Shown in pieces: positions 8,348-62,988 of a DNA stretch of 64,000 nt. Source of the DNA: Pomphorhynchus laevis (lineage: Eukaryota > Acanthocephala > Palaeacanthocephala > Echinorhynchida > Pomphorhynchidae). The translations under genes were made by a program, and so were the position numbers. The stretch spans positions 186,001-250,000 of the forward strand of contig WNNJ02001180.1 of assembly GCA_012934845.2 (NCBI GenBank), in the 5' to 3' direction. The notes under the pieces are model-generated. The model was not told where the DNA came from. It saw only the letters and a program-made list of their open reading frames with translations, and searched no databases. Position 1 is the first letter of the stretch. Every line of letters begins with the position of its first letter.

Positions 8348-8565
8348 TTATTATTATTAATGTTTCAACAGCACATAAAAGCATGGCTTAATTGGCTGGT
8401 TCACTGCAGAAAAAAGAAAATATAATAAAAGTATCACAAATACGGAAAAGCAGCTTTCCCCATGGCATTCTCCATCCGTAATTTCTTTTTGAATTCGTTG
8501 ATATTGCTACTGCACACTGTTGACTCTCCAAGCCTATTCCACAGAGATACAACTCGCCGATCAAA

Positions 8566-10769
8566 TTAGACAGCTCGTGATTTTCTTATCCTTTCACGTC
8601 GCAGGGTTAAACCATGGCCTCGGAGGATATTGGATGAGCGCAAATGAAGACAATCTCGAAGTGGATGATCCAAATCATTAAGAATTTGCCAGACCATACT
8701 CATATCGATGTACCGGCGGGTCCACGTGACAGTCTCAAGTCTAAGTGCTTTTAATCGATCAGGGTACGACAAAAATTTCAGTTGCGGTGCTAGCTTGGTA
8801 GCTCTATGAAGTACCCTCTCTGAACTAATATGTTCTTTTGAATTTTGGGGATACACACACGGCGCAGCATATAGAAGACGGCGCAGCATATAGAAGACGG
8901 CTCAACACATGAGCAAAGATTAGCGGACGTAGGGCAAATTGATTAAGTGCAATGAAAGTGCGTCGAAGTTGACCGATTATCCCCAACGCATTTGAACAAG
9001 CATGTTCAGTATGTGTGACGGTACTCAAATCACTGTTTATCCACACTCCCAAGTCCTTATATTTGTTCACTCGTTCTATATCACTGCTTTGAAAGCTATA
9101 ATTAACTAAAGATTGAGCATTTCCGCCACGAACACGTAAATGTTTGCATTTTGATATATTTACAATCAACCTATTGAGCAGAGCCCAATTTTCGACTTCA
9201 TCGATATCCCGTTGCAGTTTGACTATATCATTGGGTGAACGAATTGCCCGCCAGATTTTCAAATCGTCTGCATATAAAAGCATCCGAGAATCAATAAATT
9301 CCGGGATATCGTTGATGTAGACACTAAATAACAATGGACCCAATACTGAACCTTGAGGCACCCCTATATTACATGGCCGCGAAGAAGAGTAAAAATTATC
9401 TACATGCACACAATAACTACGATTGCTTAAAAACGATTCAATCCATCTAACAAGCAAGAATGGAATGCCACTTTTCTCTAGTTTATTTAGGAGGAGTCTA
9501 TGGTCTACTCTGTCAAATGCCTTAGAGAAATCGAAGAATATGATGTCAGTAGCAATTGATACGGCTTTATTAGCTGACCAATCAAGATGGGCAGCGAGTA
9601 GATTAGTAACTGTCGAATAACCCTTACAGAAACCATGTTGCTCAGAAGCTATTACATTATTCTCACTATAAAACTTGACCATATAACCATGTATAATTCG
9701 CTCTAACATTCTACAACATAAGCAAGTAATACTTACTGGTCTGTAATTGTCTACTGCAGATCTATCACCCTTTTTGAAGATGGGGTGAATGATCGATTGT
9801 TTCCACTCTTTTGGAAGAGTCGTATCAATAATAGATTGTCGAAATATGTTACAAAGTGGTGTATATATTGAGTCTGCTATTCGACGAAGATATATCGAAG
9901 GTAACAAATCAGCACCTTTGGAGTTTGTCTCTTTAAGACGATGCAGTTCAGCTAAAACTTTCTCGGGAGTTATCAAATTAGCTATGTCTAAACTAGGATA
10001 TGAAACACTAGCACCTCTTATCGTTTCACTGTTCTGGATAGGTTCAGAATACTCGTTTGTAGTCTCTTTGTACAAGTAAAAATGCCTTGAGAACATCTCA
10101 GCAAGGTCGTCTTCAATAACGCTATCAAAATATTGGCCAATTGTTTTATTAGCGTTCCTACTACTATTCACATATAGAAAGAGAGCTTTGGGATCATGTC
10201 TACAACTATGAGCTAGACCATTTTCAAAGCATTTGAAAATGACCCACCCTTAAAGCATTTGAAACTGGAGTCACGAGCCTTCATTGCAGTAGCCAGCTCA
10301 GTATGAAACCAACGAGCGCTTTTCTGACTAGTCTTAGACTTCAAAGGTGAGAATTTTACCATTAGAGAATAAAGCGTCATGCGAAAATGATCCCAGGCCT
10401 CGTCAACTCCGACAACAGCCGGATCAGCCCAACTTACTCTATGCAGCTTTGATGTAATAACATCATAGTTCGCCCGAAAGACATTAATCTGACGATTGTA
10501 CCGAGCACGATGAAACACCCCATTTGTATATTTAGCAAAACTTTAACTACACAGTGATCAGACAAACTAACAGGAGAATCATATTGGATACTACTGATTA
10601 ATTGACTGTTTGTCGATAGGCAAAGATCAAGAAGGGAAGAACTACAACTCGAAAAGCGAGTATGTACATCAACAAATTGAGCAAGACTACAAAAAGTAAA
10701 ACACTCCACACAAGATTCACTATCACAAGTAGGAAGAACCGTATTCGAAGTCCATTCAACATCTGGCAT
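8566..10769 (-). pseudogene. LINE B endonuclease end and reverse transcriptase, frameshifted
   Basis: Reading passes through three frames: 10769-10434 (MPDVEWTSN, SDHCVVKV), 10518-10213 (SARWFHTELA), and the main RT frame 10171-8825 with the finger motifs VDNYRPVSIT and ASEQHGFCKGYS, motif A IIFFDFSKAFDRVDH, GVPQGSVLGPLLFS and motif C LLYADDLKIWRA. A tandem duplication of about 20 bp (GGCGCAGCATATAGAAGAC, near 8864-8898) shifts the last part into the frame 8889-8566, which encodes LLYAAPCVYP and ATKLAPQLK. The sister copy has this segment once. The RT motifs are intact, the protein is not. Confidence 0.85.
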
Positions 10770-10771
10770 AT

Positions 10772-12415
10772 TCAGATCCCAATTATCACAGTATCACAAT
10801 CTCCTCGCGTATACAACTCTATCTCTTTAATGAGTTTCTTAGATATTGCCTTAGGAGCACGATACACAAGACCCAGTATGATGGGTGAGCTGTTATCAAA
10901 CTTCACCTGACACCACAAACTCTCAACTCTATCAATAGACGACTTACTCAAAACACGCACCTTAACTTCGTCTCTAATAAAAGGAGCTACGCCACCACCC
11001 CTACCCCCTATCCGATCACTACGGAACAAAGAATAGTCTGGGATGGATACCTCAGCATCGGATACATCACAATTAAGCCAAGATTCTGTAATACCAACTA
11101 TAATTGGATTAACATACTTGATCTTAAACTTTAGCTCATCGACTTTCTGTAACAAGCTCCGAACATTACAATAAAATATACTATGACTTTTATTCACACC
11201 AGTGCGAGTAGTAATATCATCTCTAGCAATCTGACACACTTCAGATCCCAAATCAGCTAGGCACTCATATGCTATAAGACCTTGCCAAAACCCTTCACAT
11301 TGACGAGAGGCGATACATCTAGTGGAGACCAACTGATTCAAATGTGTCGCCTCACTACTTGAAAATTTTGCACACAGATTACTCTCACCAAGTGCAACAC
11401 GAGATGCGAGTTCTTTCTTAGCTTGAGACAATTTCTCCCTTTGAAGAGCGTCAAGATCTTTCAAGAGACTAACATGGGATCCTTTTAAACGATATGAATT
11501 CCGAAGAATTAACTCAGCATGTGACTGCTCTCTAAATACGGCCTTGAGTAAACGCGGCCTATTACTAAGTGTATCACGCTTACCCAGTCGAAATAATGCA
11601 ACGAGTTTAACACGTTTGACAATATCCACATTGCAAGAACCAAGTACCTGCGTCAATATAAATCTCACACTCTGGACGTCCTCGTTAAGACGTACTTGTG
11701 CGTTCTCAAATAAAGATTCTCTTACATTGGCCAGAATAACAGATCTACATCGATCAGCGGTGTGTTTCCTATTATTACCAATTTGCAATTCGAGACTGTC
11801 ACGTGACACTGCGGATAGTGTATGTTGACTTATCGTTGACGCTTGTTCCTTCTTTTTGACAGTCCCATTATCAGACATATGACCATGATTCAAAACCTGA
11901 CAATATGTATTTTCATCATTAGTAACATCAGGTAAATGCACTGGAACATCCATGGCTACAGTCTCACCCTCTACAGTTAAATCTATATTCATTGGATTAT
12001 TTGCAAGACTTGAGGAGGGATATATAGAGTTAAGACTTGAGGAGGGATATATAGAGTTAGAATAGCTTCCATCACTATGACTGGAATTTTCAACATTCTT
12101 AGTAGATTTGGAAATAAGAACTTCCTTACTTTGACCGGCACTTATGCTTTTTGGAATTGGTGGAGCTGATATGGGTCCAAGAGAATTACAACTCGACTGA
12201 CCGACAACCAAGGGGGTAGATTCCGTCTTCAAATCATTTATCAAAGATGCGCAGCAGTACCCGCAGTAGAAAGATGCATTAGACAGAGCTGTTTTCTTTT
12301 CCCCGGGAACTGAAACACTTGTCCACACATGACAATCTTCACTTGAACACCGAACCTGATAATCCACGAACTTGGCAGCATCACCTCGCTTTGTAGTCTT
12401 CCTCTGTTTGACCAT
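10772..12415 (-). pseudogene. LINE B fused ORF1-endonuclease protein, cut short by a frameshift
   Basis: A 547-residue frame starting at an ATG (complement of 12413-12415). Residues 23-54 hold C-x4-C-x2-W-x19-C-x2-C. Around residues 125-145 a 27-bp in-frame tandem duplication (about 12004-12058) doubles NSIYPSSSL. Residues about 225-345 form the ORF1 C-terminal block (VALFRLGKR, RPRLLKAVF, LLKDLDALQ). The APE endonuclease follows directly from about residue 405: FYCNVRSLL, ITESWLN, GGRGGGVAPF. The frame ends at VIIGI followed by a stop. One extra G there would restore the expected GDLNMPDVEW, so a 1-nt deletion is inferred. ORF1 and ORF2 functions in one polypeptide is noteworthy among CR1-like elements. 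Confidence 0.8.
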
Positions 12416-19275: not shown

Positions 19276-19316
19276 ATTGTTTAAAAGGATATATCATATC
19301 TTTTTAAACGATATTT

Positions 19317-22300
19317 CATATCATTTAAAAGGATCCCATGTTAGTCTCTTGAAAGATCTTGACGCTCTTCAAAGGGAGAAATTGTCTCAAGCTAAGAAAG
19401 AACTCGCATCTCGTGTTGCACTTGGTGAGAGTAATCTGTGTGCAAAATTTTCAAGTAGTGAGGCGACACATTTGAATCAGTTGGTCTCCACTAGATGTAT
19501 CGCCTCTCGTCAATGTGGAGGGTTTTGGCAAGGTCTTATAGCATATGAGTGCCTAGCTGATTTGGGATCTGAAGTGTGTCAGATTGCTAGAGATGATATT
19601 ACTACTCGCACTGGTGTGAATAAAAGTCATAGTATATTTTATTGTAATGTTCGGAGCTTGTTACAGAAAGTCGATGAGCTAAAGTTTAAGATCAAGTATG
19701 TTAATCCAATTATAGTTGGTATTACAGAATCTTGGCTTAATTGTGATGTATCCGATGCTGAGGTATCCATCCCAGACTATTCTTTGTTCCGTAGTGATCG
19801 GATAGGGGGTAGGGGTGGTGGCGTAGCTCCTTTTATTAGAGACGAAGTTAAGGTGCGTGTTTTGAGTAAGTCGTCTATTGATAGAGTTGAGAGTTTGTGG
19901 TGTCAGGTGAAGTTTGATAATAGCTCACCAGCCATACTGGGTCTTGTGTATCGTGCTCCTAAGGCAATATCTAAGAAACTCATTGAAGAGATAGAGTTGT
20001 ATACGCGAGGAGATTGTGATACTGTGATAATTGGGATCTGAATATGCCAGATGTTGAATGGACTTCGAATACGGTTCTTCCTACTTGTGATAGTGAATCT
20101 TGTGTGGAGTGTTTTACTTTTTGTAGTCTTGCTCAATTTGTTGATGTACATACTCGCTTTTCGAGTTGTAGTTCTTCCCTTCTTGATCTTTGCCTATCGA
20201 CAAACAGTCAATTAATCAGTAGTATCCAATATGATTCTCCTGTTAGTTTGTCTGATCACTGTGTAGTTAAAGTTTTGCTAAATATACAAATGGGGTGTTT
20301 CATCGTGCTCGGTACAATCGTCAGATTAATGTCTTTCGGGCGAACTATGATGTTATTACATCAAAGCTGCATAGAGTAAGTTGGGCTGATCCGGCTGTTG
20401 TCGGAGTTGACGAGGCCTGGGATCATTTTCGCATGACGCTTTATTCTCTAATGGTAAAATTCTCACCTTTGAAGTCTAAGACTAGTCAGAAAAGCGCTCG
20501 TTGGTTTCATACTGAGCTGGCTACTGCAATGAAGGCTCGTGACTCCAGTTTCAAATGCTTTAAGGGTGGGTCATTTTCAAATGCTTTGAAAATGGTCTAG
20601 CTCATAGTTGTAGACATGACCCCAAAGCTCTCTTTCTATATGTGAATAGTATTAGGAACGCTAATAAAACAATTGGCCAATATTTTGATAGCGTTATTGA
20701 CGACCTTGCTGAGTTGTTCTCAAGGCATTTTTATTTGGACAAAGAGACTACAAACGAGTATTCTGAACCTATCCAGAACAGTGAGACGATAAGAGGTGCT
20801 AGTGTTTCATATCCTAGTTTAGACCTAGCTAATTTGATAACTCCTGAGAAAGTTTTAGCTGAACTGCATCGTCTTAGAGAGACAAACTCCAAAGGTGCTG
20901 ATTTGTTACCTTCGATATATCTTCGTCGAATAGCAGACTCAATATACAATTGAGTAATATATATAGTAATATATTAAGGTGTATACTCAATATACACCAA
21001 CTTGGAAACATATTTCGACAATATATTATTGATACGACTCTTCCAAAAGAGTGGAAACAATCGATCATTCACCCCATCTTCAAAAAGGGTGATAGATCTG
21101 CAGTAGACAATTACAGACCAGTAAGTATTACTTGCTTATGTTGTAGAATGTTAGAGCGAATTATACATGGTTATATGGTCAAGTTTTATAGTGAGAATAA
21201 TGTAATAGCTTCTGAGCAACATGGTTTCTGTAAGGGTTATTCGACAGTTACTAATCTACTCGCAGCCCATCTTGATTGGTCAGCTAATAAAGCTGTATCC
21301 ATTGCTACTGACATCATATTCTTCGATTTCTCTAAGGCGTTTGACTGAGTAGACCATAGATTCCTCTTAAATAAACTAGAGAAAAGTGGCATTCCATTTT
21401 TGCTTGTTAGATGGATTGAATCGTTTTTAATCAATCGTAGTTATTTTGTGCATGTAGATAATTTTTACTCTTCTTCGCGTTTATGTAATATAGGGGTGCC
21501 TCAAGGTTCAGTATTGGGTCCATTGTTATTTAGTGTCTACATCAACGATCTCCCGGAATTTATTGATTCTCGGATGCTTTTATATGCAGACGATTTGAAA
21601 ATCTGGCGGGCAATTCGTTCACCCAATGATATAGTTAAACTGCAACGGGATATTGATGAAGTCGAAAATTGGGCTCTGCACAATAGGTTGATTGTAAATA
21701 TATCAAAATGCAAACATTTACGTGTTTGTGGCGAAAATGCTCAATCTTTAGCTAATTATAGCTTTCAAAGCAGTGATATAGAACGAGTGAACAAATATAA
21801 GGACTTGGGAGTGTGGATAAACAGTGACTTGAGTACCGTCACACATACTGAACATGCTTGTTCAAATGCGTTAAGGATAATCGGTCTACTTCGACGCACT
21901 TTCATTACACTCAATCAATTCGCCCTACGTCCGCTAATCTTTGCTCATGTGTTGAGCCGTCTTCTATATGCTGCGCCGTGTGTGTATCCCCAAAATTCAA
22001 AAGAACATATTAGTTCAGAGAGGGTACTTCATAGAGCTACCAAGCTAGCACCGCAACTGAAATTTTTGTCGTACCCTGATCGATTAAAAGCACTTAGACT
22101 TGAGACTGTCACGTGGACCCGCCGGTACATCGATATGAGTATGGTCTGGCAAATTCTTAATGATTTGGATCATCCACTTCGAGATTGCCTTCATTTGCGC
22201 TCATCCAATATCCTCCGAGGCCATGGTTTAACCCTGCGACGTGAAATGATAAGAAAATCACGAGCTGTCCAATTTGATCATGAGGAAAGCTGCTTTTCCA

Positions 22301-48044: not shown

Positions 48045-48905
48045 GTTTAAAATATGGTGCCGATAATAATGAAATATGGTGTCAAAAATAATGGAATAAG
48101 GTGTTATAATAGTTAAGTATGGTGTCAATTATGGTAAAATATAGTGCCAATAATGGTTAAATATAGTGTCAATAATATTGAAATATGGTGTTAATAATAG
48201 TGAAATAAGGTGTCAATAATAGTTAAATATGGTGTGAATTAGTGTGAAACAAAGTGTTAATAATAGTTAAATATGGTGTAAATTATAGTTAAATATAGTG
48301 TCAATAATATTGAAATATGGTGTTAATAATAGTAAAACAAGGTGTCAATAATAGTTAAATATGGTGTGAATTAGTGTGAAACAAAGTGTTAATAATAGTG
48401 AAATATTGTGTTAATTATAGTTAAATATAGTGTAAATAAAATAGTGAAATATGGTGTTAATAATAATGAAATAAGGTGTCAATAATAGTTAAATATGGTG
48501 TGAATTAGTGAGAAACAAAGTGTCAATAATAAAATAAGGTGTCAATAATAATAATGAAATACGGTGTCAATAATAGAAAAATATGGTGTCAATAATAGAA
48601 AAATATGGTGTCAATAATAGAAAAATATGGTGTCAATAATAGAAAAATAGGGTGTTAATAATAATGAAATAAGGTGTCATTAATAATGACATACGGTGTC
48701 AATAATAATGAAATAAGGTGTCAATAATAATGAAATACGGTGTCAATAATAATGAAATACGGTGTCAATAATAGAAAAATAGGGTGTTAATAATAATGAA
48801 ATATGGTGTCAACAATAGAAAAATATGGTGGTTATTATAATGAAATAAGTTGTCAGTAATAATGAAATATGGTGTTAATAATAGAAAAATATGGTGTCAA
48901 TGATA
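48045..48905. repeat. Minisatellite, about 22-bp unit
   Basis: About 40 imperfect units of AAATATGGTGTCAATAATAG with variants (GTTAATAATAGTG, AAATAAGGTGTC, AAATACGG). It starts about 200 bp past the Rpt4 stop codon. The most regular units are 48560-48660. No coding function is inferred. Confidence 0.9.
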
Positions 48906-56846: not shown

Positions 56847-57523
56847 TAAAATTCAAAACATCAAAATGCTCTGATTTGACTTTAAGAAAATAAATTCTTT
56901 TGATCAAATGAATATTAAATTTAGTAATTATGAGCTTTGAAGAATTATTTTATTTTACAAATATTTATTTTTATTTTTTTTTATTTTTTTTATTTTCAAA
57001 TATTAATTTTTAATATTCTTTTTATTTCCAAATATTAATTTTGATTTTAATCTTCAAATATCAATTCTTAATACTTTTATTTTTTTATTTCCAAATATTA
57101 TTTTTTTATATTCTTTATTTCCAAATATTAACTTTTTATATTTTTATTTTTTTTTCTAATATTAATTTGTCCCCATTAAAAATACCAATATATTTTACTT
57201 AATTATTAATCCTACTTCATTATTATCAAATTATCATATTATATGAGAAACTTATATAATGTAAGAGAAATATAATATAATATCATAATATATGAGAAAC
57301 TTACATAATATAATATATAGAAACTTATTATATAAGAAAACATGTTTTAAACATTGAGTGTTACCATAAACGTTACCGGGAAATAAGAAATTTAAAATTC
57401 AAAACATCAAAATGCTCTGATTTGACTTTAAGAAAATAAATTCTTTTGATCAAATGAATATTAAATTTAGTAATTATGAGCTTTGAAGAATTATTTTATT
57501 TTACAAATATTTATTTTTATTTT
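56847..57523. repeat. Identical direct repeats flanking T-rich DNA
   Basis: 56847-56980 and 57390-57523 are essentially identical for about 130 bp (AAATTCAAAACATCAAAATGC to ACAAATATTTATTTTTATTTTT). Between them lies T-rich sequence with TATTTCCAAATATTAATTTT units and an AACTTATATAAT repeat. Confidence 0.85.
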
Positions 57524-57936
57524 TATTTTCATTTCAAACTATTAATTTTTAATATTCTTTATTTCCAAATATTTATAATTAATACTAAACCCATAATCTT
57601 CTTCCATCTCAAATATACAGCTATTACAAGAACAAAGAAGCAGAAAAAGTTATCCTTTATTTGATAAAAATTCTTTATTTCGATAGCTCCTGCTATTATC
57701 ATCAGGATTACAATAAAATGTTTCACAAATTTTTGTTAAAAAATTAAGTTAGAAGAAATTCACGCGGAATGGTCTAACTCTCCTTAAATAAAAGTTAGCC
57801 GATATTAAAGAGACCTGCGCTGGCATTTGCCAGTGCTTTGCTAATGATTCTTTTTTGGTGAAGCTGTAGTACTGATTTAGTACTCTAAGATGTTACTAGA
57901 AAATTTTACATCATACACATTGATTCATTCATTGAT

Positions 57937-58015
57937 TGCCGTCTGCCAGTCCTCCTCTGCATCCAGTAGTGGGAGGGATCTGGCACTGATGAGTCATTGT
58001 GATGACGAAACGGCA
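57937..58015 (+). ncRNA. Hammerhead ribozyme, type III order, monomer 1 (intact)
   Basis: Stem III strands GCCGU (57938-57942) and ACGGC (58010-58014) pair, with a further U-A. The cleavage site is GUC, after C57943. Stem I is UGCCAG (57944-57949) with CUGGCA (57980-57985), extended beyond an internal loop by CCUCC with GGAGG. The core CUGAUGA is 57986-57992. Stem II is GUCAU-UGUG-AUGAC (57993-58006). GAAA starts at 58007. All core nucleotides expected for self-cleavage are present. Confidence 0.92.
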
Positions 58016-58242
58016 TTCGTCAACCTTTCGAATCTGGCTTACATGTTTTACAAGAAATTCACGCGGAATGGTCTCACTCTCCTTAAATAAAAGTTAGCCG
58101 ATATTAAAGAGACCTGCGCTGGCATTTGCCAGTGCTTTTGCTAATGATCCTTTTTTTGGTGAAGCTGTAGTACTGATTTAGTACTCTATGATGTTACTAG
58201 AAAATTTTCTAGTACATCATTCACATTGATTCTTTCATTGAT

Positions 58243-58321
58243 TGCCGTCTGCCAGTCCTCCTCTGCATCCAGTAGTGGGAGGGATCTGGCACTGATGAGT
58301 CATTGTGATGACGAAACGGCA
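58243..58321 (+). ncRNA. Hammerhead ribozyme, monomer 2 (intact)
   Basis: Core, stems and GUC site as in monomer 1; cleavage predicted after C58249. Confidence 0.92.
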
Positions 58322-58543
58322 TTCGTCATTCTTTCGCGTCTGGCATACATGTTTTACAAGAAATTCACGCGGAATGGTCTCACTCTCCTTAAATAAAAGT
58401 TAGCCGATATTAAAGAGACCTGCGCTGGCATTTGCAAGTGCTTTTGCTAATGATCCTTTTTTTGGTGAAGCTGTAGCACTGATTTAGTACTCTATGATGT
58501 TACTAGAAAATTTTACATCATTCACATTGATTCATTCATTGAT

Positions 58544-58622
58544 TGCCGTCTGCCAGTCCTCCTCTGCATCCAGTAGTGGGAGGGATCTGGCACTGATGAG
58601 TCATTGTGATGACGAAACGGCA
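58544..58622 (+). ncRNA. Hammerhead ribozyme, monomer 3 (intact)
   Basis: Identical core and stems; cleavage predicted after C58550. Confidence 0.92.
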
Positions 58623-58842
58623 TTCGTCATTCTTTCGCGTCTGGCTTACATGTTTTACAAGAAATTCACGCGGAATGGTCTCACTCTCCTTAAATAAAAG
58701 TTAGCCGATATTAAAGAGACCTGCGCTGGTATTTGCAAGTGCTTTTGCTAATGATCCTTTTTTGGTAAGCTGTAGTACTGATTTAGTACTCTATGATGTT
58801 ACTAGAAAATTTTACATCATTCACATTGATTCATTCATTGAT

Positions 58843-58921
58843 TGCCGTCTGCCAGTCCTCCTCTGCATCCACTGGTGGGAGGGATCTGGCACTGATGAGT
58901 CATTGTGATGACGAAACGGCA
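58843..58921 (+). ncRNA. Hammerhead ribozyme, monomer 4 (intact, loop variant)
   Basis: Core and stems intact. The stem I apical loop reads CATCCACTGG instead of CATCCAGTAG, a change outside the core. Cleavage predicted after C58849. Confidence 0.9.
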
Positions 58922-59148
58922 TTCGTCATTCTTTCGCGTCTGGCTTACATGTTTTACAAGAAATTCACGCGGAATGGTCTCACTCTCCTTAAATAAAAGT
59001 TAGCCGATATTAAAGAGACCTGCGCTGGCATTTGCAAGTGCTTTTGCGAATGATCCTTTTTTTGGTGAAGCTGTAGTACTGATTTAGTACTCTATGATGT
59101 TACTAGAAAATTTTCTAGTACATCATTCACATTGATTCTTTCATTGAT

Positions 59149-59227
59149 TGCCGTCTGCCAGTCCTCCTCTGCATCCAGTAGTGGGAGGGATCTGGCACTG
59201 ATGAGTCATTGTGATGACGAAACGGCA
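59149..59227 (+). ncRNA. Hammerhead ribozyme, monomer 5 (intact)
   Basis: Core and stems as in monomer 1; cleavage predicted after C59155. Confidence 0.92.
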
Positions 59228-59453
59228 TTCGTCATTCTTTCGCGTCTGGCTTACATGTTTTACAAGAAATTCACGCAGAATGGTCTCACTCTCCTTTAAT
59301 AAAAGTTAGCCGATATTTAAGAGACCTGCGCTAGTATTTGCAAGTGCTTTTGCTAATGATCCTTTTTTGGTGAAGCTTTAGTACTGATTTAGTACTCTAT
59401 GATGTTACTAGAAAATTTTCTAGTACATCATTCACATTGATTCATTCATTGAT

Positions 59454-59532
59454 TGCCGTCTGCCAGTCCTCCTCTGCATCCAGTAGTGGGAGGGATCTGG
59501 CACTGATGAGTCATTGTGATGACGAAACGGCA
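59454..59532 (+). ncRNA. Hammerhead ribozyme, monomer 6 (intact)
   Basis: Core and stems as in monomer 1; cleavage predicted after C59460. Confidence 0.92.
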
Positions 59533-59757
59533 TTCGTCATTCTTTCGCGTCTGGCTTACATGTTTTACAAGAAATTCACGCGGAATGGTCTCACTCTCCT
59601 TAAATAAAAGTTAGCCGATATTAAGGAGACCTGCGCTGGCATTTGCCAGTGCTTTTGCTAATGATCCTTTTTGGTGAAGCTGTAGTACTGATTTAGTACT
59701 CTATGATGTTACTAGAAAATTTTCTAGTACATCGTTCACATTGATTCTTTCATTGAT

Positions 59758-59836
59758 TGCCGTCTGCCTGTCCTCCTCTGCATCCAGTAGTGGGAGGGAT
59801 CTTGCACTGATGAGTCATTGTGATGACGAAACAGCA
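59758..59836 (+). ncRNA. Hammerhead ribozyme, monomer 7 (stems damaged)
   Basis: The core CUGAUGA and GAAA remain, but stem I reads TGCCTG against CTTGCA (two mismatches) and stem III has ACAGC against GCCGU (one C-A mismatch). Activity is probably lost or weak. Confidence 0.8.
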
Positions 59837-60062
59837 TTCGTCATTCTTTCGCGTCTGGCTTACATGTTTTACAAGAAATTCACGCGGAATGGTCTCACTC
59901 TCCTTAAATAAAAGTTAGCCGATATTAAAGAGACCTGCGCTGGCATTTGCAAGTGATTTTGCTAATGATCCTTTTTTGGTGAAGCTGTAGTACTGATTTA
60001 GTACTCTATGATGTTACTAGAAAATTTTCTAGTACATCATTCACATTGATTCATTCATTGAT

Positions 60063-60141
60063 TGCCGTCTGCCAGTCCTCCTCTGCATCCAGTAGTGGGA
60101 GGGATCTGGCACTGATGAGTCATTGTGATGACGAAACGGCA
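60063..60141 (+). ncRNA. Hammerhead ribozyme, monomer 8 (intact)
   Basis: Core and stems as in monomer 1; cleavage predicted after C60069. Confidence 0.92.
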
Positions 60142-60362
60142 TTCGTCATTCTTTCGCGTCTGGCTTACATGTTTTACAAGAAATTCACGCGGAATAGTCT
60201 CACTCTCCTTAAATAAAAGTTAGCCGATATTAAAGAGACCTGCGCTGGCATTTGCAAGTGCTTTTGCTAATGATCCTTTTTTGGTGAAGCTGTAGTACTG
60301 ATTTAGTGCTCTATGATGTTACTAGAAAATTTTACATCATACACATTGATTCATTCATTGAT

Positions 60363-60440
60363 TGCCGTCTGCCAGTCCTACTCTGCATCCAGTAGTGAGA
60401 GGGATCTGCACTGATGAGTCATTGTGATGACGAAACGGCA
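60363..60440 (+). ncRNA. Hammerhead ribozyme, monomer 9 (stem I damaged)
   Basis: One G is missing from the stem I 3' strand (CTGCA for CTGGCA), and the upper stem has CCTAC against GAGAGG. Core and stems II and III are intact. The same changes occur in monomer 11. Confidence 0.82.
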
Positions 60441-60667
60441 TTCGTCATTCTTTCGCGTTTGGCATACATGTTTTACAAGAAATTCACGCGGAATGGTCTC
60501 ACTCTCCTTAAATAAAAGTTAGCCGATATTAAAGAGACCTGCGCTGGCATTTGCAAGTGCTTTTGCTAATGATCCTTTTTTTGGTGAAGCTGTAGTACTG
60601 ATTTAGTACTCTATGATGTTACTAGAAAATTTTCTAGTACATCATTCACATTGATTCTTTCATTGAT

Positions 60668-60746
60668 TGCCGTCTGCCAGTCCTCCTCTGCATCCAGTAG
60701 TGGGAGGGATCTGGCACTGATGAGTCATTGTGATGACGAAACGGCA
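60668..60746 (+). ncRNA. Hammerhead ribozyme, monomer 10 (intact)
   Basis: Core and stems as in monomer 1; cleavage predicted after C60674. Confidence 0.92.
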
Positions 60747-60967
60747 TTCGTCATTCTTTCGCGTCTGGCTTACATGTTTTACAAGAAATTCACGCGGAAT
60801 AGTCTCACTCTCCTTAAATAAAAGTTAGCCGATATTAAAGAGACCTGCGCTGGCATTTGCAAGTGCTTTTGCTAATGATCCTTTTTTGGTGAAGCTGTAG
60901 TACTGATTTAGTGCTCTATGATGTTACTAGAAAATTTTACATCATACACATTGATTCATTCATTGAT

Positions 60968-61045
60968 TGCCGTCTGCCAGTCCTACTCTGCATCCAGTAG
61001 TGAGAGGGATCTGCACTGATGAGTCATTGTGATGACGAAACGGCA
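60968..61045 (+). ncRNA. Hammerhead ribozyme, monomer 11 (stem I damaged)
   Basis: Carries the same stem I lesions as monomer 9. The array ends 35 bp later, where T-rich DNA resumes. Confidence 0.82.
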
Positions 61046-61080
61046 TTCGTCATTCTTTCGCGTATGGCTTACATGTTTTA

Positions 61081-61560
61081 CTTCAAATATTTACTTTCTA
61101 TATTTTTATTTATTATTTCTAAATGTTTATTTTTAAAAATTTGTATTTTCAAATATTTATGTTTTAAATTTATATTTTTTATTTCCAAATATTAATTTTT
61201 ATTTTTATCTTTAAATATTTTTTCTATTTTTATTTATTATTTCCAAATGTTTATTTTTTATTTTTTTTCGATATATTTATTTTTAATTCTTTTATTTTAT
61301 ATTTCCAAGTATAAATTTTAAATTTTTTTATTTACAAATATTTATTATTTATTTTTTTCTTCAAATACTATTTTCTATATTTTTATTAATTATTTCTAAA
61401 TATTAATTTTTTATATTTTTATTTCCAAATATTTTTTTTTATATTTTTATTTTTTATTTCTAAATATTAATTTTAAATTTTTTATTTACAAATATTTTTT
61501 TTTAATATTTTTTTTTACAATTTAGAATTTTTTTACAAATAACAATTTTTTAGGGAAGTA
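61081..61560. repeat. T-rich minisatellite right of the ribozyme satellite
   Basis: Imperfect units of TTTTTATTTCCAAATATTAAT. The same units occur left of the satellite at about 56980-57160 and 57500-57590. Confidence 0.8.
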
Positions 61561-61647: not shown

Positions 61648-62988
61648 CTACCACCAGCCTACCATGTTCTTGCCCTTTGGAGCCGTCGCCAGAATGCTGA
61701 CAGCATTTCCATGTTGGATTGCGATGCTAACGTTTTGGAAGAGGTATGAAGTAGCACATGAATCCCCGGTAACGTGATTCAATATTTTTCCTATCTCCTT
61801 AAGAAGAGCCAACGCGGAAGAACTCAGTGATCTATAGGTATCTACTCCAAAAGAGCAAAATATGTGGGACATGGTCAAGTCGGCATATTTCAGCCGTTTC
61901 CGCTCCTCGGCATATGAAACTGCTTCGCCTGCTCCTCTGGCTGCATTCCTAACATTGCTGGCTGCGAGGGTGTCCACGCAGGTGGCGTCCCACATCAAAC
62001 ATTTCCCTTCACGCCAAGGGAAAATGGTGACTCCATCAGGACGTCGACCGTCCGATCTGCATATATTGGATGGCTCTAGAATGTTTGGAGCGTTGACGGT
62101 GTTGAGGACTCTGCTTATCACTGAATTTATTTCCGCGTGTCTGGGGAATCTGCCTATAAAAATTCTGCATGCGAATCCGTGTCGTCCTGACTCGTCAACA
62201 GACGCTCCACAATGACATATGTGTGGAGTACATGTAGGAAGGCCTAGTCTTAGGGAAATGCTCAATCTCACAACCTCGTCATCGAGCAAAGTTCCCAGGG
62301 CACTAATCGGAACTGTGTTTAGCCAAGCACCAGACTCACTTGTGGAGACCGCCATAATTCGCACGCGAGATGCCTCGTCTTCCGAGCCTTCAATGAAAGA
62401 TTTACGAGCTTGTTTTATGAGGGGAGTGTCCCAAGCGGATTGTTTATGGCTATTAGACTGTGCCTCATTGAGACCCGTCTTGACCAACCAAGTTGAGTAG
62501 CCAGCGTCAAAATGTGGGCAATGTGTAGAGTTATTCAAAATAATATTGACGCAGTCCTCCGTTGCCACTGCAGACGATAAAAAAGCCGGAAGAGCAATGT
62601 CCGCTGAACTGTTGATCCTCAAACCACCGAACGGCACGGGCAATGAAGCTTGACGCAAATAATCGTTCGTTATCGCGCAATTTGTGATGTGGGATAAATA
62701 TTTTTCCAGTACACCATCGAGCTTATAGAGTTCCGCGTACATGTTGAAGCAAGGAGTTGTACGGAACTTATAAAGCAGTATGGGCATGTAAAGACGGTTT
62801 TTTATACGGAAAAGTGCCTCGTGAGCACGAAGTAGGCAAACCATGGTGCACATTAATATCAATTGCTCCTCGCTCTGAGCCAAATCTTTCGGTGAATTCT
62901 CTTCATAGACAACGCTTCCAAGGATTTGCAAATTTTCCCTGCCAATCACTTTTATGTTTGGGGATACGGATGAAAAGGTAGTTGTCAT
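61648..62988 (-). pseudogene. LINE C-terminal region with restriction-like endonuclease
   Basis: A 446-residue open frame on the minus strand. The first half is the RT thumb and connector (FRIKNRLYMPILLYKFRTTPCF, LPVPFGGLRI). Residues about 255-285 have a Cys/His motif, CHCGASVDESGRHGFAC, followed by PRHAEINSVISRVLN. EPSNICRSDGRRPDGVTIF and LMWDATCVDTLA form the PD-(D/E)xK-like endonuclease core (PDG, then WDAT). This is the RLE architecture of R2-related and similar early-branching LINEs. The frame is open to the C-terminus but the upstream RT is broken, so it is classed as a pseudogene. Confidence 0.8.

Follow-up and report, generated by a model that had tools for sequence, protein, structure and literature searches.

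Type III hammerhead motifs in a dispersed and probably retrotransposed repeat of the acanthocephalan Pomphorhynchus laevis

A tandem array with type III hammerhead motifs

The window analyzed here is a stretch of 64,000 nucleotides from the genome of the acanthocephalan Pomphorhynchus laevis (contig WNNJ02001180.1, positions 186,001 to 250,000), and it contains, at 57749-61081 on the plus strand, a tandem array of 11 monomers of about 305 bp, each of which carries a hammerhead ribozyme motif. Tandem Repeats Finder gives a period of 305, 11.0 copies and 96% matches, and successive cleavage triplets lie 299 to 306 bp apart, in agreement with the monomer count and spacing of the initial annotation, which was made from the sequence alone. 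With position 1 of the monomer defined as the first base 3' of GCCGTC, boundary mapping places the beginning of the array near position 105 and its finish near position 108. The GC content of the array is 41%, that of the whole window being 34.3%, and within the array there is no open reading frame (ORF) of more than 67 amino acids, no tRNA and no B box (one mismatch allowed). A pair of variant monomers occurs twice (copies 8-9 and 10-11), with copies 9 and 11 sharing one hammerhead variant. An A/T-rich minisatellite of TTTATTTCCAAATATTAATTTTT-like units flanks the array on both sides (56948-57149, 57491-57573 and 61082-61520), while AATACTAAACCCATAATCTTCTTCCAT is found near a copy of the element both at 57581-57607 of the window and in the right flank of another locus (L085); the latter sequence is perhaps another repeat family serving as a target.

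All 11 monomers present on the plus strand, in this order, GCCGTC, a stem I hairpin of 41 to 42 nt, CTGATGA, GTCATTGTGATGAC, GAAA and C(G/A)GC. This is the order of a type III hammerhead, as had been claimed. A strict type III descriptor, requiring the core, stems III and I of at least 5 bp each and a stem II of at least 4 bp, retrieves exactly 8 complete motifs in the array on the plus strand and none on the minus strand, which is the number of intact motifs counted earlier; it retrieves none in 300 dinucleotide shuffles of the array and none in 20 shuffles of the window. Hammerheads 1 (57938-58014, predicted cleavage after 57943), 2 (58244-58320, after 58249), 3 (58545-58621, after 58550; descriptor and fold), 5 (59150-59226, after 59155), 6 (59455-59531, after 59460), 8 (60064-60140, after 60069) and 10 (60669-60745, after 60674) are intact according to the descriptor, and hammerhead 4 (58844-58920, after 58849) has intact basal stems and a variant apical part of stem I. 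The three remaining monomers keep the core and have stem defects: hammerhead 7 (59759-59835) has a mismatch in stem III (GCCGT / ACAGC), hammerhead 9 (60364-60439) lacks one base in the 3' strand of stem I, and hammerhead 11 (60969-61044) has the same defect as hammerhead 9. It is confirmed, therefore, that the array encodes type III hammerheads, with stem III as the open helix.

Three pieces of the array were folded. The minimum free energy structure of a 90-nt piece with copy 3 (58541-58630) is a textbook three-way hammerhead (-37.4 kcal/mol, z -3.1), in which the predicted stem I consists of a 6-bp helix, a 2-nt bulge and then helices of 7 and 4 bp. A 96-nt piece of copy 2 is predicted to adopt a different fold, with an off-switch hairpin that is considered below. 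For the piece with the defective copy 9 the hammerhead form is predicted at a z of 0.02, i.e., no better than shuffles.

Dispersed copies and their insertion ends

The unit is found throughout the genome. Across the 249.4 Mb (3,242 contigs) that were searched, the exact core plus stem II has 1,320 matches (671 forward and 649 reverse), and the reversed pattern, used as a control, has none. A DNA search with one window monomer gave at least 285 matches, from 40 of 1,791 candidates scored, and one variant junction occurs at 549 places in the genome at up to 2 mismatches. Divergent subfamilies have the ribozyme in common, their bodies being changed. Among viral contigs there was none with the exact core plus stem II and, by that test, no kin. 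The designation of the repeat as a satellite thus fits the tandem array in the window but is too narrow for a unit that is dispersed genome-wide and the fetched copies of which are largely short insertions.

Insertion ends were analyzed in 88 records, comprising the window and 87 fetched loci, 5 of which are pieces of the window array; the loci had been selected for having the hammerhead core or for resembling a monomer of the window. Removal of duplicates left 71 elements of any identity and 78 segments at 90% identity or more. We also trained a covariance model on 48 of the 78 distinct copies (fetched loci and window). Its hits in the window are exactly the 11 array places, all on the plus strand; as the model learned from the family itself, it is no independent test. 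In 30 divergent loci of 65 to 88% identity, about 20 of which cover the bins concerned, TGCCGTC (positions 300-306) is conserved at an identity of 0.96 as against 0.64 and 0.79 in two upstream bins; the conservation peak at CUGAUGA and stem II in these loci is biased, as many were picked by that very pattern.

The 5' ends of the segments accumulate at the ribozyme. In 13 of 78 segments the 5' end is at position 306, 1 or 2, no more than 1 nt away from where cleavage is predicted (P = 9e-13 versus uniform placement); as the loci were selected to hold the core, the uniform null is imperfect, and a variant with 200 allowed starts gives P = 1.7e-10. A wider interval, from 306 to 15, includes 32 of the 78 ends, and the end counts were unchanged under three rotations of the reference (79 segments in that run). 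Genome-wide there are 538 exact matches to the first 21 nt 3' of the cut, of which 164 have no GCCGTC upstream, whereas at the single control position used the neighboring 6 nt are missing in 99 of 524 (Fisher P = 1.4e-5). Where segments begin at position 1 they are preceded by A/T-rich DNA or by an opposite arm (junctions of 82 segments), and the flanks beyond element ends are likewise A/T-rich.

Most of the 3' ends, 65 of 78, are at two A-rich places. Site A (positions 105-119, around TTTTACAAGAAATT; 58954-58968, plus strand, in a representative monomer) holds 31 of the 78 and site B (positions 141-153, around TTAAATAAAAG; 58990-59002, plus strand, in the same monomer) holds 34; both are putative priming sites. 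Like the motif and its predicted fold, these end positions were observed directly.

The same is true of two further regularities. Neighbors on opposite strands, up to 150 bp apart, are arranged head-to-head in 44 of 44 cases; before filtering there were 46 head-to-head cases and 1 exception, which is located in a divergent locus (L043) and has repeated blocks of head-to-head copies on either side. There are 26 pairs with an identity of at least 90%: 18 combine an outer end at site A with one at site B, none has two ends at A, 1 was scored as having two at B, and 7 have an end elsewhere. The sole B+B score comes from a split segment (L023) with its outer end at 107, i.e., at site A. If the two ends were primed independently, about half of the pairs should be A+A or B+B; P is 4e-6 when the A+B pairs are counted as 18 of 18 and about 4e-5 when they are counted as 18 of 19. 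In the 18 pairs below 90% identity there are 2 A+B pairs and 16 with an end elsewhere. Target-site duplications of 9 to 14 bp were detected at the junctions of 24 of 42 elements (88% identity or more), compared with a mismatched-flank control in which 9 or more shared bases were found anywhere in 4.2%. In several cases duplication and element end overlap; one example is AATAAATTTATTGT in a locus (L031) with ends similar to sites B and A. This overlap suggests that priming involved short stretches of base-pairing.

Target-primed copying weighed against other origins

Our results are best accounted for by a non-autonomous retrozyme of animals that carries a type III hammerhead and whose self-cleaved RNA is copied by target-primed reverse transcription; we would put the probability of this at roughly 0.85. 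Read-through transcripts of a copy or an array would be cut by the hammerhead after GCCGUC, so that each RNA released would comprise one or several units and have a defined 5' end. An A/T-rich target would be opened by a reverse transcriptase that acts in trans and most likely belongs to a long interspersed nuclear element (LINE), and a DNA 3' end would anneal at site A or site B, about 110 or about 146 nt from the cleavage site. Copying would proceed toward the RNA 5' end and in a good part of cases run off at the cleavage site; the second DNA end would often prime as well, which would produce the inverted head-to-head arrangement, and the 9-14 bp duplication would arise when the staggered cut was repaired. 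For longer products the template would have to be circular or to contain internal ribozymes that had stayed uncut. That the RNA is cleaved in the animal, that it circularizes and that a LINE is the partner are all inferred. Traits of LINE-mobilized elements are nevertheless present in the form of a defined 3' priming end, a variable 5' end, target-site duplication and twin-primed inversions.

Twin priming is known from L1. In the account reportedly given by Ostertag and Kazazian in 2001, priming from both target strands produces a head-to-head inverted L1 copy. The unit described here differs in that both arms can reach the RNA 5' end, as they do in one locus (L005), and in that the arms use two different fixed priming sites. 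A single RNA bridging both target ends, annealed at A and at B, would account for pairs with one A and one B; both annealed DNA ends would then be extended toward the 5' end made by the ribozyme. We offer this bridging only tentatively, and regard it as rather doubtful when taken together with an off-switch that would let the predicted cleavage occur only while the RNA is being transcribed and would leave multimers intact. The candidate switch is TTCGTCAT (58922-58929, plus strand), the complement of ATGACGAA, which comprises the 3' strand of stem II and the core GAA. In window copies 2 and 6 the addition of TTCGTCAT switches the predicted fold to a hairpin that buries stem II and GAA, and in two window copies the predicted probability of stem III falls from 0.99 at 10 nt past GAAA to 0.02 at 14 nt. 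The full 8-nt complement is present in 101 of 143 distinct copies, as against 0.07% of shuffled flanks. Stem III is predicted to be lost later in one locus (L082; 0.95 at 14 nt and 0.04 at 18 nt), a series that is informative for stem III only, the stem II pair that was followed being at 0.0 throughout, and in another (L006) the off-switch is not predicted; hence the switch is not universal. It is possible that this downstream complement explains why some ribozymes would remain uncut.

The nature of the template is a separate matter. The 5' ends that accumulate at the cleavage site suggest that part of the events used a linear template, namely self-cleaved RNA, and in this respect our reading differs from the model, in the relevant passages of PMC4918200, in which circles are the final template of retrozymes. 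Circular RNA may have templated another part of the copies, with reverse transcription going around the circle and halting at the primed DNA, which is compatible with the retrozyme reading and to which we would give slightly less than even odds. Circles have been demonstrated for animal type I retrozymes, according to parts of PMC7229834, and some segments have nearly equal starts and ends, for example 143-142 on the plus strand of L081 (2.02 units), 144-144 on the minus strand of L086 and 105-108 in the window. However, 5' ends between 100 and 147 number only 10 of 79, where a uniform spread would give about 12. Per-locus means of unit divergence are 0.042 within a segment (25 of 35 loci below the between-locus value), 0.046 for the opposite arm (16 of 24 loci below it) and 0.053 between loci; for a comparison of circular and linear templates, only 2 positions are usable as diagnostic variants.

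Two explanations do without reverse transcription of a cleaved RNA. The window array would suit an ordinary DNA satellite in which the hammerhead is a passenger and spread is due to unequal crossing-over, slippage during replication or re-integration of DNA circles: it is a long tandem array of 11 units with no visible duplication, it contains a repeated pair of monomer variants, and in close copies the ribozyme is not extra conserved. Such dynamics predict none of the duplications in 24 of 42 elements, the 3' ends at two places, the 5' pile-up or the uniform head-to-head orientation, and are improbable as the sole mechanism, although they may explain the growth of long arrays. A DNA transposon, either a miniature inverted-repeat transposable element or a foldback element, with a hammerhead in its arms by chance, would share the head-to-head arms and the target-site duplications. 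Yet the outer ends are unlike each other, being A and B, and there is no terminal inverted repeat, the inner junctions vary, and one-armed insertions exist, one of which (L040) begins at position 1 and has a 13-nt duplication. Given that the inner junctions vary and the outer ends differ, a fixed foldback element is excluded, and we consider an origin as a DNA transposon of any kind highly improbable.

Several observations weigh against the motif or against the retrozyme reading itself. No match to Rfam was found in the window at gathering thresholds, and at relaxed thresholds RF00008 reached only 19.2 to 21.6 bits (cut-off 48.5; E 0.3 to 1.4) in alignments that misplace the 5' strand of stem III; a genome search with RF00008 gave no match among 68 of 56,174 candidates scored. 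The initial annotation had named the lack of a significant covariance-model match as grounds for giving up the hammerhead, and to the letter this is what Rfam returns for the window. We uphold the motif nonetheless because it is supported by the direct descriptor and the shuffles, and we suppose that the poor scores are due to the long stem I. Covariation gives no signal in 48 of 78 distinct copies, with 1 two-sided pair change as against 1.5 in shuffles, the copies being too nearly identical in the ribozyme to show it; the identity of the ribozyme in close copies is 0.946, compared with 0.956 elsewhere. The 5' ends of 46 of 78 segments fall outside the interval 306 to 15, 18 of 42 elements yielded no duplication of at least 9 bp, and copies without the core are under-sampled because the loci were chosen by core or monomer similarity. 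The window array in turn has no target-site duplication, and its 5' end, at position 105, is away from the cleavage site, both of its ends lying close to site A. We take it to be one long copy, the length of which would reflect local amplification of an insertion, the 11-mer having probably grown by local unequal exchange.

Known ribozyme repeats and neighboring sequences

Hammerheads in metazoan repeats are mostly of type I, type III being found in plants (passages of PMC7761336, PMC3088659 and PMC4918200). The earlier remark that a type III array would be unusual among animal repeats agrees with this literature, as far as the passages go, although type III motifs have been published for hepatitis delta virus (HDV)-like RNAs, as isolated motifs in termite genomes and as motifs in dipteran genomes (PMC7936874, in part). 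These atypical motifs resemble those described here in being from animals and in the make-up of the long helix I, which has a short basal stem, is interrupted and bears an additional hairpin. In the sections of PMC7936874 that describe them, the termite motifs are isolated and the HDV-like ones have a pseudoknot between loops I and II (GCCR/YGGC), whereas ours lie in a repeated mobile unit and have a 6-bp basal stem, a predicted 2-nt bulge and, by eye, no such loop sequences.

The closest resemblance is to the non-long-terminal-repeat (non-LTR) retrozymes of metazoans. With these the unit shares, according to passages of PMC7229834 and PMC7761336, tandem units of about 300 bp, a GC content below 50%, the lack of a protein, duplications of more than 4 bp when present, a stable RNA fold and many dispersed copies, and it fits their class, which consists of repeats of 150-450 bp with one hammerhead in each, a GC content under 50% and neither a protein nor LTRs, a primer-binding site (PBS) or a polypurine tract (PPT), the last three not having been looked for with a dedicated tool. 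They are of type I in those passages, whereas type III occurs here in all 11 monomers; the ends at the cleavage site and at two internal A-rich sites, as well as the head-to-head pairs, that are found here are not described in the same passages, nor does the main text of PMC7229834 contain the word "inverted". Plant LTR retrozymes also have the type III topology and a hammerhead that is predicted to be blocked in the longer RNA (PMC4918200, in part). They are described there as elements of about 600-1000 nt with a GC content above 55%, LTRs, a PBS, a PPT and 4-bp duplications, while the unit here has 305 bp, 41% GC and duplications of 9-14 bp, LTR, PBS and PPT not having been searched for.

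Other comparisons are more distant. Satellites of newt, schistosome and Dolichopoda (parts of PMC7761336 and PMC2837043) also carry a hammerhead in tandem-repeat monomers, but the motifs of vertebrate and invertebrate satellites are of type I in the passages of PMC7761336, and here stem III is the open helix. In the R2 LINE with a 5' HDV-like ribozyme, ribozyme cleavage sets the 5' end of the element, as proposed here; unlike our unit, it is autonomous and site-specific and has another ribozyme (PMC3774820, in part). Among open-licence full texts, there was no paper pairing "hammerhead ribozyme" with "acanthocephala". The published draft of P. laevis (260.3 Mb, 4,021 contigs, 32.9% GC) is described in PMC7310846, the main text of which has no "hammerhead", "ribozyme" or "satellite".

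Animal retrozymes of type I and isolated animal type III motifs are thus already known; what is new is type III in a mobile repeat with unusually clear insertion records. A 2020 review stated, in the passage concerned, that animal retrozyme repeats are without a conserved motif from which to deduce their machinery (PMC7761336). Here, dozens of genomic copies record re-entry, with a 5' end often at the ribozyme cut, two internal A-rich priming places and involvement of both target strands, so that the re-entry pathway can be tested. It has also been raised, in a passage of PMC3088659, that propagation of such repeats possibly requires type I; our results indicate that in an animal, too, a mobile repeat can be associated with type III. 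As curated Rfam cut-offs miss the array, other families of this kind may be escaping notice elsewhere.

Tandem repeats of about 296 bp with a type I hammerhead form a separate family in the same genome and allow comparison. At least 65 matches were found, 62 of them over the Rfam cut-off, with 73 of 40,608 candidates scored; examples are at C2913:307-3156, C2049:11066-12590 and C1351:62837-64064, and some neighbors are oppositely oriented. A second type-I-like hammerhead lies in a 342-bp tandem repeat at L072:2440-2844 and reaches 30.6 and 28.7 bits with Rfam HH9, below the cut-off of 52. At another fetched locus, the contig start (L088:1-1534) consists of a divergent COX1-like piece followed, by eye, by reverse-transcriptase-like sequence, and would be either a nuclear mitochondrial insert or an assembly join.

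The remainder of the window includes LINE-type ORFs with Exo_endo_phos and RVT_1 domains. Two oppositely oriented LINE copies, at 8559-11498 (minus strand) and 19315-22279 (plus strand), have 98.8% identity over 1,635 bp and 95.8% over 1,316 bp. A PQ-loop/MPDU1-like gene shares 52% with its closest relative and about 40% with sequences from the acanthocephalan Neoechinorhynchus agilis and from bdelloid rotifers. When 23 of the 49 proteins listed were placed in a tree, the outgroups of which include long branches, it grouped with the 52% sequence and Neoechinorhynchus (support 97/95), so that an acanthocephalan host is most likely. A protein search with another gene of the window retrieved that gene alone. 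A frame of 446 amino acids at 61648-62988 (minus strand), which has no Pfam match at E 0.001, is possibly the remnant of a mobile element. At 48050-48905 there is a satellite with a 22-bp unit, 38.9 copies and 78% matches.

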